This document shows, one piece after another, positions 12,238-21,051 of a stretch of 64,000 bases of DNA. The stretch's first letter is position 1. Each line of letters opens with the position of its first letter. The translations under genes were made by a program, and so were the position numbers. The notes beneath the pieces are model-generated. The model made no database searches, had not been told where the DNA came from, and was given only the letters and a program-made list of their open reading frames with translations. The DNA lies in the NCBI GenBank assembly GCA_003141675.1, contig PLND01000040.1, positions 22,200-86,199 on the forward strand. The letters are read 5' to 3'. The stretch comes from Anaerolineae bacterium. Lineage in GTDB: Bacteria; Chloroflexota; Anaerolineae; Anaerolineales; RBG-16-64-43.

Positions 12238-13674
12238 TTATCGAAAAAAACTGCTTTCCAGTTCCTTCCAATCCGGTTGCCCATCCCATTGCAGTATAGA
12301 ACCCAAAAGGGGATGAACCAATCGGATCTGTCCGGCGGCCTGGAGCGCCAGAACCCGCACCGCGGCGTGCGCGCCTTCCGAAGATCTTAGCTTGCAGAAG
12401 TGGAACGCCTCGCGCAAATTCATGCTCAATACCATCCGGCGCAAATATCCGTTGGGGACGACGTAGGCAGCCGCGTTGGGTCCGAGCGCCATGCGCAGAG
12501 CGCGGTATTCATCGGCCGCTCTCCCCATGACGTTGTTGTACTCATCAAGGAATCCGGCTTCTTCGAACCAGCGCGGGGTGACGTAGCCCTGATCGCATCC
12601 AAGCGGACCCGGAGTTTGAGACATCATGCGGTGCCGTTTGACTTCGAAATACGCACCCTGATCCATCACGGCTTCGAACGTATAGGTGATATGTTCCAAT
12701 TCGCGCAACGGTTGATCGTGGTCGCCCAGGCCCTCCAGCAGCGCGTCGGCGAGGAGGCGGCGCTCCTCGGACGAGGCGTCGCGGACCCGGCGTGCGGACT
12801 CCTCCAGACCCCAACCGCAGAAGCGGACACCCGCGGCGGCCAGTGCGCGGTCTTCGGCGCCGGGTTCGTAATCGATCAGGCGCATCCAACCTCGCGGCGG
12901 ATCCTCACGTGGCGCGGGAGGTATCCCGAGCGGAGCGGAGGCGCGCCGGAACTTCTCCGGAAGATCCCGCAGGTAGCCGTTTTCCTCCGCGTACTTCACC
13001 AGCGTCGGCACCTCGGCCAGGGCGGTCTGCTTAATCTCGGCGCCAATCACGCGCACTTCGGCCAGCGGGTGGGAAAGCATTTTGCGCAGGGCGTGTTCGA
13101 GCGCGCGCGCGTTGATCGTTATCCCGACGTTGGCCAGCACCGACGCCGGAAGCAGGTAACGGCAAACGTCGACGTAGCAGGAACGGATCCTTCCCTCCCA
13201 GCGCGAATCGCTTTCCCCTTCCCGCCGCGGGAAGCGCGCCCGCGCCAGACCGCCAACCGTTTCCAGCGCGCGCGCGTATGTGTCCAGCAGCTGTCGGCAA
13301 GTTTCGCCGTACGGTTTTTCCAGCTCGCCGCCGGCAACTTCCGGAGGCGCGAGAAACGCTCCGCTCGACCATTTTTGATAGCGGGTGCTCTTTTCGGTGT
13401 AGGAAACCAAGCGGTTGGATTCGAGGCATTCGATTGCGAGGCGCGAAACGTTTTCCACCGCGATATGCAGCACGGCGTGCTCGGCCACCGAGGCGTGACC
13501 GTATCCGACAACCCATTTCTCGTGGAACTCAGCGGAACGAGCGTCGCTAAGATCGGCGGCATTCCGGTCAAAGGGTTCGGGGGAACGCGAGGTTTTAGCA
13601 AACGCCACCGCGATGGTCTCCGGCGAGAGATCGCGTTCCCGCAGCAGATACACCCGCCGGGAAAAATCGGTCAC
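12238..13674 (-). CDS. Double-domain ThyX-family (FAD-dependent thymidylate synthase-like) protein
   Basis: N-half: YGHASVAEHAVLHIAVENVSRLAIECLESNRLVSYTEKSTRYQKW. C-half: RELEHITYTFEAVMDQGAYFEVKRHRMMSQTPGPLGCDQGYVTPRW...REAFHFCKLRSSEGAHAAVRVLA. GTG start overlaps the ribF stop (GTGA). Confidence 0.85.
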   Translation of the reverse strand: MTDFSRRVYLLRERDLSPETIAVAFAKTSRSPEPFDRNAADLSDARSAEFHEKWVVGYGHASVAEHAVLHIAVENVSRLAIECLESNRLVSYTEKSTRYQKWSSGAFLAPPEVAGGELEKPYGETCRQLLDTYARALETVGGLARARFPRREGESDSRWEGRIRSCYVDVCRYLLPASVLANVGITINARALEHALRKMLSHPLAEVRVIGAEIKQTALAEVPTLVKYAEENGYLRDLPEKFRRASAPLGIPPAPREDPPRGWMRLIDYEPGAEDRALAAAGVRFCGWGLEESARRVRDASSEERRLLADALLEGLGDHDQPLRELEHITYTFEAVMDQGAYFEVKRHRMMSQTPGPLGCDQGYVTPRWFEEAGFLDEYNNVMGRAADEYRALRMALGPNAAAYVVPNGYLRRMVLSMNLREAFHFCKLRSSEGAHAAVRVLALQAAGQIRLVHPLLGSILQWDGQPDWKELESSFFR

Positions 13675-14600
13675 ACTTCCTCCTGAAGGATGCGCCGGGT
13701 TTGCTCGATATCTTCCGTCATCTGCCGGCTCAGAGAATCGCTGTCGGGAAAACGGCGCTCTTCCCGCAGCCGGCGGACGAATTCAACTTTAAGGGTCGCA
13801 TCGTACAGATCGCCGTCGAAATCCAGAAGGTGAGCTTCCACCGTAACTGCTGGAGTGCGTCCATCGGCAAAAGTCGGGCGGACACCGACGCTGGTGGCGC
13901 TCCGGTAACGTTTTCCTTCATGGACGGCCCACGTGGCATACACCCCATGGGCGGGGACGACCATCTCCGGCCAGACATCCAGATTGGCCGTGGGTATCGA
14001 CATTTTCCGGCCGCGTCCCGCACCGTGCACAACCTTACCGGATAGGGCATACCGGCGGCCCAGCAAAGCGGCCGCCTGCACGGCGTCCCCTTCGGCCAGC
14101 GAATCGCGAATTCGAGAGGAGGAAATCGGTCCATGCGCGTCAGCTAAAGGCGGAACAATATATAGCGCATAGCCCCATTCGATGCTGTGATTGGCTAAAT
14201 ATTCGACGTTTCCTTCCCGCCGGTACCCGAAGGAAAACCCCGGTCCGCACCACAGGGAATGCAAACCTAAGTGTGACTTCAGGGTTCGGAGAAATGTCTC
14301 GGCCGGAATAGCGGAGAACGCCCGGTCGAAAGGTTGAAGAATCACGGCGTCGAGGGGAATCTGCTCGAGGAGCGCAAGGCGCTCCTCCAGCGTGGAGAGG
14401 TAGCGAAATGGCGCGGACCCCAGCACGGCCCGCGGATGAGGGAAGAAGGTCAGAACCGCCGACGGCGCTCCGTCTTCCCTGGCCGCCTGGGCCATTTTCT
14501 CGAGCAGGTAACGGTGCCCGCGGTGCAGCCCGTCGAAGGAGCCGACCGCAAGGTATGCTCCGTGCAAGGCGGCATTGTCGATGGATTGAATGCGTTCCAT
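13671..14600 (-). CDS. ribF: Bifunctional riboflavin kinase/FAD synthetase
   Basis: LAVGSFDGLHRGHRYLLEKM...GPGFSFGYRREG...SSSRIRDSLAEGDAVQAAALLGRRYALSGKVVHGAGRGRKMSIPTANL. Confidence 0.93.
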   Translation of the reverse strand: MERIQSIDNAALHGAYLAVGSFDGLHRGHRYLLEKMAQAAREDGAPSAVLTFFPHPRAVLGSAPFRYLSTLEERLALLEQIPLDAVILQPFDRAFSAIPAETFLRTLKSHLGLHSLWCGPGFSFGYRREGNVEYLANHSIEWGYALYIVPPLADAHGPISSSRIRDSLAEGDAVQAAALLGRRYALSGKVVHGAGRGRKMSIPTANLDVWPEMVVPAHGVYATWAVHEGKRYRSATSVGVRPTFADGRTPAVTVEAHLLDFDGDLYDATLKVEFVRRLREERRFPDSDSLSRQMTEDIEQTRRILQEEV

Positions 14601-14606
14601 GGAATT

Positions 14607-15491
14607 CTACAAATCGCCGAAGACTTTGCGCGGCTGCCAGGTTCCGGCCGTCGGATCCGCCTCGACCACGGCCAGAAGTTCCCCTTCGGGCGCGAGTGCC
14701 CGGGCCCGCCCCGTGGCGCCTTCCAGTGCGGGGATGGCGATGCCGTTGCGCAGCTTTTCCGCCTCCTCGGCGGTGAGCTGCACGGTCGACCAGCCTTCCA
14801 GAATGGCGCTGGCGGGCATGGAGATCTTTTCCCAAGTGCCTTCCAGGAAGCGGCGCTTCAGTTCATCCAGCGGGGTGGCCCGCTCCACCGAAAACGGTCC
14901 CAGGCGGATGCGGCGCAATGTGACCAGGTGCGCATGGGATCCCATCGCTTCACCAATGTCATGGGCGATCGAGCGGATGTATGTGCCGCGCGAGCAGCGG
15001 ACGCGCACCACGGCATTCGGGCTTTCCCAGCGCAGGAGCGCGAGTTCGTAAATGTGCACTTTGCGCGGCGTCATATCCACTTCCTCGCCGTTCCGGGCCA
15101 TGTCGTACGCCTTGCGTCCGCCGATTTTTATCGCCGAATAAACCGGCGGCACCTGCAGCCGTTCGCCGATGAACGTCTGCATCTTCGCCTCCAGCGATTC
15201 TTCGCGGAAGGTGAATGGGCGCGTTGCGGTGATACGTCCGGCGGCGTCGTAAGTCGAGGTCTCTGCGCCGAAACGGATGGTGGCGAGATATTCCTTGTCC
15301 AATTCGAGCAGATACTCGGCCAGCCGCGTCGCGGAACCGAGGAGGATGAGCAACACGCCGGAAGCATACGGGTCGAGTGTTCCGGTATGGCCGACTTTGC
15401 GGATCTGGGTCCCTCGTCGGACAACGTTGACGATATCGTGCGACGTCGGCCCGGTTGGTTTGTCAATGACGAGCAATCCCGGTTTGGGCAT
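14607..15491 (-). CDS. truB: tRNA pseudouridine(55) synthase TruB
   Basis: GLLVIDKPTGPTSHDIVNVVRR...KVGHTGTLDPYASGVLLILLGSATRL...VRCSRGTYIRSIAHDIGE. Confidence 0.95.
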   Translation of the reverse strand: MPKPGLLVIDKPTGPTSHDIVNVVRRGTQIRKVGHTGTLDPYASGVLLILLGSATRLAEYLLELDKEYLATIRFGAETSTYDAAGRITATRPFTFREESLEAKMQTFIGERLQVPPVYSAIKIGGRKAYDMARNGEEVDMTPRKVHIYELALLRWESPNAVVRVRCSRGTYIRSIAHDIGEAMGSHAHLVTLRRIRLGPFSVERATPLDELKRRFLEGTWEKISMPASAILEGWSTVQLTAEEAEKLRNGIAIPALEGATGRARALAPEGELLAVVEADPTAGTWQPRKVFGDL

Positions 15492-15538
15492 GGTTATCCT
15501 CCCTGGTAATCCGTTTCCCCTTTTGTGGAATTATATCC

Positions 15539-16543
15539 CTAGCCCTCTGCGCGGGCGGTTCCGCCGGAGGCGGAGCGGGGGGCATGCTGCGCGGCCAACC
15601 ATTCCTTCGTGCGGGCCAGAACGGCCCGGGTGACCTCTTCGAGGCTGCCTTCGATGTTCGCGCCCGAGGCGGCCGGGTGGCCGCCGCCCCCGAAGGAAAT
15701 AGCCAGGGGTGTCACGTCCAATCCGCTCACGACCCGCCAGCTGACTTTAATTTTTCCATTATCTTGTTCGATGAACATCACCACCACCGATTGCCCGTCA
15801 ATGGAGGAAAGAATGTTGACCAGATCGGCGTCGTCACGTCCGGGGTAGAGTGCGGCGCGCCGGTCCTCCAGCGTCAGGCTGGTCCAAACAAGTTCGCCAT
15901 CCCGCTCCAGGCGGGAAAGCCCCGCTCCCCAATATCGGGCGGCCGCAAAAGAACGCCGGTGCAGGCTGCGTTCGACTGTCTCGGGAAGCGAGCCTCCGGA
16001 TTGCATCAGACGCTGGACCACATCCAGCGTGTGCGGCCCGGTATTGGGGGTCCGGAATCCCAGCGTGTCGGTGATTACCCCGGCCAGCAGGCACATCGCG
16101 GCTTCGGGGGGAATGGACAATCCCAGCTCGAGGGCCAAATCGGTGATCAATTCCGACGTGGCCGTCGCCGCGGGATCCACTAGGTTGACGGCGGCAAACC
16201 GGCCGTTGGTGATGTGGTGATCGATGAGTAAATCGGGCGCGCGTGCGGGCGTCCCATCCGGGATGCTGATCCGTTCGGAATCGGCACAATCAACCACTAT
16301 GCTGATATCGTATGCGGGGGGAAGTTCCGGCCGGATGTCGCCGGAGCCGGGGAGAAAGCGGAAAACCGAACTGATGCCCTCGGATAGAACGGGGTAAGTT
16401 TTTTTCCCGGCGGCGCGCAGCATATGTCCCAGGCCGAGCATCGAGCCCAACGCGTCGCCGTCCGGGCGCTGGTGTGTCAGGAGAAGCACCGTCCGATTCC
16501 GGGAGATCAGGTCTCTGGCTTGGCGGAGCAATTCGGCGTCCAT
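15539..16543 (-). CDS. nrnA: DHH-family oligoribonuclease / PAP phosphatase
   Basis: LLLTHQRPDGDALGSMLGLGHML...SIVVDCADSERI...LLIDHHITNGRFAAVNLVDPAATATSELI...FGGGGHPAASGANIEG. Confidence 0.9.
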   Translation of the reverse strand: MDAELLRQARDLISRNRTVLLLTHQRPDGDALGSMLGLGHMLRAAGKKTYPVLSEGISSVFRFLPGSGDIRPELPPAYDISIVVDCADSERISIPDGTPARAPDLLIDHHITNGRFAAVNLVDPAATATSELITDLALELGLSIPPEAAMCLLAGVITDTLGFRTPNTGPHTLDVVQRLMQSGGSLPETVERSLHRRSFAAARYWGAGLSRLERDGELVWTSLTLEDRRAALYPGRDDADLVNILSSIDGQSVVVMFIEQDNGKIKVSWRVVSGLDVTPLAISFGGGGHPAASGANIEGSLEEVTRAVLARTKEWLAAQHAPRSASGGTARAEG

Positions 16544-16605
16544 GCGAATTCCCGGGAGCCGCTCGGCCAACCCGAAAATCAAAATCGGTCCGGCGGCCGC
16601 GAGGG

Positions 16606-16956
16606 TTACTCCTCCTTTAACGAGTCGATCAGGTGCTCGATATGTTCCGCGCGGTCGGGGGTGAAATCCCAGTGGAAGCGGAGCGATGGAAACGTGCGCA
16701 GCGAAATCCGCGCGGCCAGCGCGCTGCGCAGATAGCCGCGGGCTCCTTCCAGCCCCCGCAGGATTTCCCCGCGCCGGGCCTCGTCGCTATCCGCCGCCGT
16801 GATGAAAATATTCGCCAGCGAAAATTCGCGGTCTACGCGGACCTCGGTGACGGTTAACAGATGAAAGCGCGGGTCGGAGGATTCGCGGAGGAAAATCTCC
16901 GCCAGTTCGGTGCGGATCCGTTCCGCCAACCGCAGGGCTCGGGCCGGGCTGGGCAT
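16606..16956 (-). CDS. rbfA: Ribosome-binding factor A
   Basis: RALRLAERIRTELAEIFLRESSDPRFHLLTVTEVRVDREFSLANIFIT...GYLRSALAARISLRTFPSLRFHWD; located between infB and nrnA/truB. Confidence 0.9.
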   Translation of the reverse strand: MPSPARALRLAERIRTELAEIFLRESSDPRFHLLTVTEVRVDREFSLANIFITAADSDEARRGEILRGLEGARGYLRSALAARISLRTFPSLRFHWDFTPDRAEHIEHLIDSLKEE

Positions 16957-16959
16957 GGG

Positions 16960-18747
16960 TTACGCCGCCTCCAGAACATAAAATTCCAATTGGTCCCCCG
17001 CCTGGAACTCCTCGAAATCGCGCACGCCCACGCCGCATTCGAATCCCTGGCGGACTTCGCGCACGTCTTCCTTTTCATGGCGCAGGGAAGATACTTCGCC
17101 TTCGAACAAAACCTTCCCATTGCGCAGGACGCGCACCTTGGCGTTGCGCCGCGCTTCCCCCTCGCGCAGATAGCAGCCGGCGATTTTTCCGACGCGCGTG
17201 ATGCTGAAAACCGCGCGAACTTCGGCGTGGCCGATGGTCGTGGCTTTCTTTTCGGGTTCGAGCATCCCTTTCAGGGCCTTGTCGATGTCTTCGGTCAGCC
17301 GGTAGATCACGTCGTACAAGTGCACCGAGACTCCCTCGGTTTCGGCCGTGCGCTGGGCAGAGACGTCCGACTGCACGGCAAATCCGACGACGATCGCGTC
17401 CGATGCCGAGGCCAGCATGATGTCGTTCTCGGTGATATTGCCCGTCTCGGCGTAGAGGATATTCACCTTGAGGTCCTCGGAGCCGAGTTCCTTAAGCGAG
17501 TTAACGATCGGTTCCAGCGAACCCTGGCCGTCGGCTTTGATGATCAGCTTCAATTCCTTCATCTCGCCGGCCTTGAAGCGCGCGAATACCTGGTCCAGTG
17601 TGAGCGCCTTGGGCGGACCGGCCTGTTGTGCGGTCTTGGAGGCCAGCTTGCGTCCGGCCGTCATGGTGCGCGCTTCGCGTTCGTTCGGCACTACTTCGAA
17701 GATTTCTCCCGCCAGGGGGAGGTCGGCCAGCCCGAGAACGGAGACCGGGCTGGAGGGCCCGGCTTCGGTGATCGGCGCGCCGTGAAAATCGTACATCGCG
17801 CGGATTTTTCCGTGTACTTCGCCGGCCACCAGGGAATCGCCTACGCGCAACGTTCCATTTTGCACCAGCAGCGTCGCGATCGGGCCTTTCGATTTGTCGA
17901 GTTGGGCTTCGATTATGCTGCCGATCAGTGTTCCCGAGGGGTTGGCAAGAATTTTCGTGTTTTCGGCGGTGAGCACTACGGCTTCGAGCAGGTCTTCCAC
18001 GCCGGTCCGTTTCTTGGCCGACACCGGAACCACCATCGTCTCGCCGCCCCAATCGTCCGCAACCAAGCCGAGTTCCGAAAGCTGGTGCTTGACCTTGTCG
18101 GGATTGGCATTAGACTTGTCGATTTTATTCAGCGCCACAACGATCGGTACGCGCGCGGCGCGGGCGTGGGCCAGCGCTTCGCGGGTTTGGGGCATTACCC
18201 CGTCGTCGGCCGCAACGACCAGAATGACGATATCGGTTACCTGGGCGCCGCGGGCGCGCATGGCCGTGAAGGCGGCGTGGCCGGGAGTATCCAGGAAGGT
18301 GATCAGCCGGTTTTTGTGCATCACCTGATAGGCCCCGATGCGCTGGGTGATGCCCCCGGCTTCGCCGGAGGCGACATCGGTGGACCGGATGGCGTCCAGA
18401 AGCGAAGTTTTTCCGTGATCCACGTGGCCCAGGATCGTGACCACCGGCGGACGCGGCTTGAGCAGCGAGGGATCTTCTTTATCGAGGGCCTGTCTCCAGG
18501 CGGGGGCGGTTTCGGCCGGTTCGGACTTGGTCTCTTCGACTTTCTTTTCCGGTTCCGCGTCGAAGCCCATCTCATGGATGATGATGGCCGCGGTGTCGTA
18601 GTCGATCTGTTGGTTGATATTGGCCATTACCCCGTTGGCCATCAATTGCTTGATCAAATCGATCGGGCTGGCTTGGATGCGCTCGGCAAGCGCGCGCACG
18701 GTCAGCGCCGGGGGGAGTTCCACTGTTTTTCGTACGTCATTACCCAT
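16960..18747 (-). CDS. infB: Translation initiation factor IF-2
   Basis: [44 protein letters not shown]...[41 protein letters not shown]...ALNKIDK. Confidence 0.97.
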
Positions 18748-18815
18748 CGTGCACCTCCATCCGGAACCGATCTCCCCGGCGCAGCGGAAAGGGCATGCCG
18801 CAGGACCGAATTATT

Positions 18816-19148
18816 TCATGCCGCCCCTCCGGCCTTCGCCTCAGGATCGGATTCCGCGCTTTCCTCCAAGGCGAGGGAGCGCATATGAATTTCCAGCGTT
18901 GCCCGCTCGGAGGGAGTGAATTGTGTTTTCAGCGCGCCCTCCAGCGGGCCGCGCAAGGCCGCCTCCCAACAGGAGCGACGGTCGTGAACATACGCCCCCC
19001 GTCCGGGCGCTTTTCCAGTCGGATCGATCTTCACTCCGTCCGGGGTTCGCGCCACGCGGACCAGCGCTCGTTTGGCCAGCGCCTCCCGGCAACCGATGCA
19101 CATCCGTTGCGGGATGTGTTTGGGTCGAGCCAGCGTTTTGCGGCTCAT
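18816..19148 (-). CDS. YlxR/RnpM family protein
   Basis: HIPQRMCIGCREALAKRALVRVARTPDGVKIDPTGKAPGRGAYVHDRRSCWEAAL (CxxC and GRGAY(V) motifs); lies between nusA and infB. Confidence 0.9.
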   Translation of the reverse strand: MSRKTLARPKHIPQRMCIGCREALAKRALVRVARTPDGVKIDPTGKAPGRGAYVHDRRSCWEAALRGPLEGALKTQFTPSERATLEIHMRSLALEESAESDPEAKAGGAA

Positions 19149-19194
19149 CGCTCCAGTCCGGAATTTTGAAACCTATTGCCCGAGAAATCGCGGA

Positions 19195-21051
19195 TCACAC
19201 GCTTTCCCCTGAACCGTCTTCCACCCAATCTTTGGTCCGGCCGGGTTTGCGCTTGCGACGGGCAACCGTCAAACCGGTCTCGGGATCCAATTCAATGACC
19301 GCCTTGAGTTTGCCTTTCTTTTTCTTCTTCGCGCTCGCTCCTTCGTCCTCTTCCTCGGCCTCTTCCTCCCCTTCCACCACGGGGGCGGGTTCGATCACTC
19401 CCACGATTTCGCCCGCAACCGGTTCGGCGACCGCGGCGGCTTCCTGCCCTTCGGGGAGCGCTCCCTCGGCGGCCGGTTGTGCCAGGGCCGCGGCGGCTTT
19501 TTCCAGCGCGGCTTCGGCGGCTGCCTGTTCGGCTTCCGCCTTCTCATCGGCCCGCAAATTGAGGATGGCGCTTTCCAATGTTTCCTTGAATTTTTCAAAA
19601 TTCCGCGCGCCGACTTCCGGTAGCGTGAGGATCGAATCCGGATCAACCATGGAGCGTTCGTAGGATTGCCCGATGGATTCCAATCCCGCCCCGACGAGCG
19701 CCTGTTGGAGCGGTTCGCCCAGCCCCAGCGTGTCGAGCGGGCGGGTGTACGCCGCCTTCGGAATGTTCTTGCGGATTTCCGCCAGACGCCGGGTTTGGGC
19801 TTTGCGCCGGCCTTCGCGCTGTTCGGCGAGGGTCCGCTCCACCATGGTGACGAATTGGGTCATGGCGTTGTAATCTTCCGGGGGGAGCGGTTTGCCTTCC
19901 GCCTTGCGGGCCAGGGCGTCCTGCACCTGGGTAATGAGCGGCTGCTGAGCTTCGGCAAATGCGGCGAGGATTTCCTCTTTCCCGATTTTTTGCACGGCGT
20001 CGGCTGCGGCTTCGGCCACGCTCTTGATATCCACCCGCCAGCTGGTGAGCTTGGCCGCCAGGCGCGCGTTGACGCCTTCACGGCCGATCGCCAGGCTGAG
20101 CTGGTCTTCGGATACCACCACCAGCGCCGTTCGTCCGCGCACCGGATCGTCGTCCAGGTAAACTCCCGAGACGCGCGCCGGGCTGAGTGCCTTGGCGATA
20201 AAGGATGCCGGATCCGGATTCCATTCGATGACGTCGATCTTCTCGTCGTGCAATTCGCGCACGATGGCTTGAATCCGTCCGCCGCGCATCCCCACGCAGG
20301 CACCGACCGGGTCGAGGTTGGGCTGCATCGCCGCCACGGCCACCTTGGAACGCAATCCCGGCTCGCGGGCGATCCCTTTGATCTCCACCATACCCTGGTA
20401 GATTTCCGGAACCTCCGCTTCCAGCAGGCGCCGCAGCATATTGCGGTCGGCGCGCGAGAGGACGATCTGCGGTCCGCGGCTGGTCTTGGCCACATCCATC
20501 AGCACCGCGCGGATTCGATCGCGCGGTTTATAGCGTTCGGTGGGGAGCTGTTCGCGCTTGGGGAGGGTGGCTTCGGCGCGGCCCAGGCTGACGGTGATCC
20601 CGGCGGCCCCGATGGATTGCACGGTTCCGTGGACGATCTCGCCTTTGCGGGCCGACCATTCCTCGAACAGCTTTTCGCGCTCGGAATCGCGCAGTTTCTG
20701 GTGGATTTGCTGTTTGGCGGCCTGTGTGGCGATCCGCCCGAAGTCTTCCGGCGTGCTGTCGATGAGGATTAAATCCCCAAGCTGCGCCTTCGGATTGACT
20801 TTCTGGGCGTCGGTCAGCGCCACCTCGGTGCGCTCATCGACGACGTCGTCGACCACTTCCTTCTCGACCAGGATCTGAATCGTCCCTTTGGTCAGGTCGA
20901 CCACGGCTTCCACTTGCTGGGCGGTGGAGGCGTTGACGGCTTTGCGATAGGCGTTGACCATCGCCGCCTGAACAACCTCCAGCACCGATTCGCGCGGCAG
21001 TCCGTAATGCTCCAGCACTTCGTTGAAGGCAAGTGCAAACTCGTTTCTCAT
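19195..21051 (-). CDS. nusA: Transcription termination/antitermination protein NusA with a long C-terminal acidic/lysine-rich tail
   Basis: [30 protein letters not shown]...[31 protein letters not shown]...[45 protein letters not shown] (KH domains). Confidence 0.95.

Follow-up and report, generated by a model that had tools for sequence, protein, structure and literature searches.

A tandem ThyX protein of Chloroflexota whose two halves retain complementary parts of the thymidylate synthase active site

The window analyzed here, a stretch of 64,000 nucleotides from an Anaerolineae bacterium, carries a tandem thyX gene whose product consists of two ThyX-like halves, each of which has kept its own subset of the active-site residues of the flavin-dependent thymidylate synthase ThyX. 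The existence of this residue split is nearly certain, and the same split was found in about 200 related proteins of bacteria, archaea, and large phages. Since different active-site parts are retained in each half, the halves must work together. We infer that the protein very probably assembles into a dimer and synthesizes dTMP as a ThyX-type thymidylate synthase with composite active sites, two of which would be complete per tandem dimer.

The gene and the positions that carry the split are listed in Table 1. Two separate matches to Pfam Thy1 (PF02511) were obtained, one per half (183.6 bits versus a cut-off of 24.8), and the whole protein also scored above the NCBIfam thyX cut-off (TIGR02170; 99.2 versus 87.9 bits), bearing out the claim of a first-pass annotation of this DNA that two ThyX-like halves are joined in one chain. 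The same annotation had described an N half that lost RH and kept SxTExSxRY, and a C half that kept RHRxxS and lost NExSxRY, and both descriptions agree with the two segments given in Table 1. The N-half loss holds for the first two letters of RHR, the last R (R80) being still present in 124 of 154 N halves. A complete RHRxxSxxExSxRY motif within one domain is absent from the tandem protein, and the complete residue set is present per chain.

Table 1. Features of the tandem thyX locus, with positions in the window; S88 and similar labels refer to T. maritima ThyX, and conservation counts to 154 cellular tandem proteins
Feature	Position	Strand	Remarks
Tandem thyX gene	12238..13674	-	478 codons (478 aa); GTG start at 13674; TAA stop 12238-12240
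N-terminal ThyX half, residues 1-255	12910..13674	-	Thy1 match E 7.9e-29
Ser62 (T55), FAD contact from subunit B	13489..13491	-	S/T in 154/154 N halves
SNRLVSYTEKSTRY, residues 86-99	13378..13419	-	First two RHR letters gone
Ser96 (S88) and Arg98 (R90), within residues 86-99	13378..13419	-	154/154 N halves each
Tyr99 (Y91), within residues 86-99	13378..13419	-	N halves: Y 148, F 6
Arg172 (R147)	13159..13161	-	N halves: R 152/154, K 2; C halves: not conserved
C-terminal ThyX half, residues 256-478	12241..12909	-	Thy1 match E 3.9e-23
RHRMMSQTPGPLGCDQGY, residues 347-364	12583..12636	-	RHR present; S88 and R90 equivalents gone
Arg430 (R174), dUMP contact from subunit A	12385..12387	-	R in 154/154 C halves; N halves mostly K
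ribF (riboflavin kinase / FAD synthetase)	13671..14600	-	Pfam FAD_syn and Flavokinase

The AlphaFold2 model of the whole chain (mean pLDDT 94.5, pTM 0.91) matched ThyX structures in all of its best 50 PDB hits, with 21-23% identity to solved ThyX, and over its length it also matched two viral tandem proteins, namely A0A6B7EUB9 (461 aa) and the thymidylate synthase of Microcystis phage LMM01 (491 aa). When the C half was modeled alone (pLDDT 94.4), TM0449 (1o26) was matched over 222 columns with a TM-score of 0.73-0.75. Together with the Thy1 match of the N half (E 7.9e-29), these models predict a ThyX fold in both halves, and the structure prediction gave no support to the possibility, raised at the outset as one that would speak against a tandem ThyX, that one half has another fold.

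The split was followed in 154 cellular tandem proteins, in 43 dereplicated proteins with less than 55% mutual identity, and in 49 tandem proteins from viral contigs and phages. Both halves were aligned to T. maritima ThyX, whose numbering is used for the split; the letters of the reference sequence agree with the published mutant names H53, S88, R90, Y91, E144, and R174. Among the cellular proteins, N halves retain T/S55, S88, R90, Y91, and R147, and C halves retain R78 (154/154), H79 (153/154), R80 (154/154), and R174, with D, E, or Q at the Q75 position in all 154. Each half lacks most of the residue set of the other, both in the 154 cellular and in the 49 viral-contig or phage proteins. Indeed, R occupies position R78 in 3 and H occupies H79 in 8 of the 154 N halves, with a full RHR in a single one, and in the C halves of the dereplicated set T55 and R90 were never found (0/43 each) and S88 was found three times (3/43). 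In the viral and phage proteins, the division holds without exception at S62, S96, R98, R172, R347, H348, R349, and R430 of the tandem protein. Thirty aligned canonical ThyX proteins from the same phylum retained every active-site position. The division between halves is not total, since the subunit-B residue R165 is common to both (140/154 N halves and 124/154 C halves) and R80 remains in most N halves.

Other features of the alignment concern single positions or proteins. Arg324 stands at the T55 position in 145 of the 154 cellular C halves, and the R174 position of N halves is occupied by Lys (Lys201 region). A new catalytic site at Arg324 was not retained as the main reading, because this Arg is not conserved in phage copies (10/50 rows). 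The C half of one protein (L091) contains an S-x-R-Y string after RHR, which has the wrong spacing and was treated as a coincidence.

In canonical ThyX, each active site is formed by three subunits of a tetramer with 222 symmetry (PMC6514825; 222 symmetry also in PMC3498832). In M. tuberculosis numbering, with T. maritima equivalents in brackets, subunit A provides RHR to FAD and contacts dUMP through R199 (R174) and R95 (R78), subunit B provides Ser71 (T55) and Arg190 (R165) to FAD, and subunit C provides Arg87, Ser105 (S88), Arg107 (R90), and the lid residue Tyr108 (Y91) (PMC6514825). In PBCV-1 ThyX, which also shows 222 symmetry, Gln75 and Arg182 (R174) belong to the same monomer, and Ser88 comes from a different one (PMC3498832). 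The sequence comparison supports a correspondence of the tandem split with these roles, the C half taking that of subunit A and the N half those of subunits B and C, and every active-site residue with a published subunit role is present among the conserved residues of the tandem chain. The suggestion that a single chain may build composite active sites thus gains support from the way in which the split tracks the published subunit roles, from the predicted ThyX fold of both halves, and from the tandem gene being the sole thymidylate synthase gene found in its genome.

According to the mechanism that we propose, duplication and fusion of thyX would have given rise to the gene for a tandem, flavin-dependent thymidylate synthase of the ThyX type, and two tandem chains would come together so that their four ThyX domains form a pseudo-222 assembly. 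A complete site would receive RHR and R174 (for the FAD phosphates/ribityl and for dUMP) from one C half; it would also need a pair of N halves, the first to supply T55 for FAD and the second to supply S88, R90, and the lid residue Y91 for dUMP. If the four domains are lettered A to D, the four sites under 222 symmetry would be (A; B, C), (B; A, D), (C; D, A), and (D; C, B), where the first letter denotes the domain in role A; with C halves at A and D and N halves at B and C, the first and last sites would be complete. The remaining two would have an RHR-less half in role A and halves devoid of T55, S88, and R90 in roles B and C, and should be inactive. As deduced from the published geometry, one of the three placements of two N and two C halves under 222 symmetry gives sites made of one C half and two N halves; the other two placements were discounted because they would require a half that combines the residues of role A with those of role B or role C, a combination that was not seen. 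The "dead" sites could have retained some role, as hinted by the conserved Arg324 and by the N-half Lys at R174. It is unlikely, however, that they became ligand-binding regulatory sites and that the same split evolved twice, through a separate duplication in f5, f54, and f76 proteins.

A profile search of the genome that carries the tandem gene (99.71% complete) identified no other Thy1 gene, and neither ThyA (PF00303) nor DHFR was found in it, with controls behaving as expected; this was the outcome of the search for canonical thyA and thyX that had been proposed as a check. The comparison was extended to 301 genomes of the phylum, in which a tandem genome was defined by both Thy1 halves in one frame, found with the profile, full-length ThyA by E < 1e-40, and true DHFR by E < 1e-50. 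Tandem ThyX was present in 104 of these genomes, full-length ThyA in 13, and true DHFR in 8, six of which have ThyA. Neither full-length ThyA nor true DHFR is encoded by any of the 104 tandem genomes, although four of them gave a weak match to part of PF00303. The chance of no overlap between tandem ThyX and ThyA is P 0.0035, uncorrected for phylogeny, and relatedness makes this value a guide only. ThyX chemistry leaves tetrahydrofolate unoxidised, so the absence of DHFR fits.

Unusual gene complements were observed in several other genomes. A genome of the same order (G176; single contig, 99% complete) gave no Thy1, PF00303, or tandem-profile match and has no recognisable thymidylate synthase. 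Relatives of tandem-ThyX genomes (G012, G024, G061, G246, and G295; f23, g33) have no Thy1 match and encode an odd ThyA-like protein, in which the PF00303 match is partial (~88-257 of 266) and sits within open frames of roughly 500-650 codons. In family f18 (e.g., G007, G020, and G048), canonical ThyX is accompanied by a weak match to part of PF00303 (~110-220 of 266), located in frames of ~220-230 codons.

Other explanations of the split have to be weighed against composite sites. One half might catalyze in a homo-oligomer of its own, with the other half acting as a regulatory or structural domain, that is, a pseudo-enzyme. Such an arrangement would accommodate the imperfect split, with R165 and R80 in both halves, and the f32 proteins, whose N half holds nearly the whole residue set, and it has some precedent in the atypical single-domain ThyX of Corynebacterium glutamicum, described in the title of PDB entry 3ge9 as not required for thymidylate synthesis. 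Nevertheless, neither half is complete outside f32, considering the rarity of RHR in N halves (1/154) and the lack of R90 and T55 in C halves (0/43 each), and the kept residues are strictly conserved in both halves, which indicates that both are under selection. A pseudo-enzyme half is thus regarded as quite improbable.

A role in another flavin or nucleotide reaction instead of dTMP synthesis, the second option of the first-pass annotation, is not favored either and was judged very improbable. Although the motifs are split and divergent, identity to solved ThyX is as noted 21-23%, and several phage genes have no annotation beyond hypothetical protein, all the checked ThyX residues that contact dUMP or FAD are present once per chain, no second thymidylate synthase was found in the genome, and the 104 tandem genomes are devoid both of full-length ThyA and of the true DHFR needed for ThyA chemistry. 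As for decaying relic halves or an assembly fusion of two genes, either half alone does lack part of the motif, but over 100 genomes and 49 viral-contig or phage sequences share the same fused frame (~460-640 aa), each half of which has invariant residues, a family-wide conservation that refutes this explanation and leaves it a negligible probability.

The origin of the duplication was addressed with trees built without the active-site columns. In a quick tree, the N halves grouped together (91), as did, weakly, the C halves (74), a pattern that agrees with a single old duplication. In a more careful tree, the grouping of all C halves was again weak (78/22). The f32 proteins (L081 and L117) branch first on both the N and the C sides of the main family. 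Their N halves retain RHR (L117) or QHR (L081), and their C halves are already devoid of S88, R90, and R147. Once the C half had lost the residues of roles B and C, the role-A residues of the N half would have been free to decay, and the f32 proteins look like an apparent intermediate, with the residue pattern that stepwise decay predicts. The f5, f54, and f76 tandem proteins (L105-L110) show the same split and may derive from a second, separate duplication. With the quick tree, the likelihood in an AU test was higher when both halves of the f5/f54 rows were grouped, and with the careful set (p 0.126) neither a single nor a double origin was rejected.

Orthologues with 44-61% identity occur throughout the order, which, together with the recurrence of the split in the cellular and viral sets, shows that the pattern did not arise by chance. 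Among named records, Anaerolineales/Anaerolineae MAGs (Chloroflexota) match best. When GTDB contigs were scanned, at least 576 relatives were obtained, of which 80 were kept. These include Anaerolineae, Dehalococcoidia, Methylomirabilota, Patescibacteria, Dadabacteria, Acidimicrobiia, and Myxococcota (Sorangium cellulosum), as well as the archaeal groups Woesearchaeota, Diapherotrites, Aenigmatarchaeota, and Micrarchaeota. Phage tandem proteins include those of Vibrio phage vB_VmeM-Yong MS32, where the gene is annotated as a hypothetical protein, and Tunturiibacter phage Tunturi_5; the tandem ThyX genes of large phages and viral contigs lie at L200 (1447-2832) and at loci L202-L251. When only the N half was used to search viral contigs, nothing was matched, because the patterns were limited to those of close relatives.

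Regarding the gene neighborhood, the ribF stop and the thyX start share four bases (GTGA, 13671-13674), an overlap that suggests an operon. The ribF gene directly adjoins the tandem gene in 21 of the 80 named loci, and the loci with RibF are Anaerolineae/Chloroflexota records. In phage Tunturi_5, the tandem gene comes after a gene annotated as dCMP deaminase. The product of ribF makes FAD, and dCMP deaminase makes dUMP. Positions 13671-21051 of the window hold, on the minus strand, nusA, infB, rbfA, a gene for a DHH-type protein, truB, and ribF, followed by the tandem thyX, and the gene order from infB to the tandem thyX recurs in about 20 named loci.

Each half of the tandem protein shares the predicted fold and the Thy1 family of canonical homotetrameric ThyX, or FDTS (T. 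maritima TM0449, 1o26; M. tuberculosis ThyX, 3gwc), and the likeness extends to the active-site residues, when summed over both halves, and to genomes without ThyA and DHFR. In contrast to the canonical enzyme, the tandem chain has two domains with each residue set retained in one half only, and two, not four, active sites are predicted per four domains. In 2009, Valas and Bourne pointed out a duplicated, uncharacterised ThyX in Chloroflexi (PMC3224940), and this is the same domain duplication in the same phylum; the text of that article, however, contains neither the residue division, the match to subunit roles, and the f32 intermediate, nor the broad spread to DPANN archaea, Myxococcota, Methylomirabilota, and phages. 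No description of the residue split was found in the openly accessible literature, subscription papers lying outside the search. The nearest conceptual parallel is the monomeric herpesvirus dUTPase, a fused duplicate that lost motifs and has one composite site from both domains (PMC12524310), likewise derived by gene duplication and fusion from an oligomeric nucleotide enzyme whose active sites were shared. The dUTPase is an unrelated enzyme with another fold; in its case a trimer became a monomer that has a single site and a moved motif order, whereas tandem ThyX preserves the order of its motifs and still depends on the association of two chains.

Under the composite-site reading, ThyX would stand as a clear example of gene fusion in a symmetric enzyme being followed by the loss of half the active sites, and one living lineage would still show an intermediate stage of that loss. 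The split itself would fix the seating of the halves in the assembly without a structure. It also predicts the dTMP synthesis route, through an uncharacterised enzyme, of many Chloroflexota, DPANN archaea, and large phages, and the tandem protein makes it possible to test if all four sites are required in ThyX.
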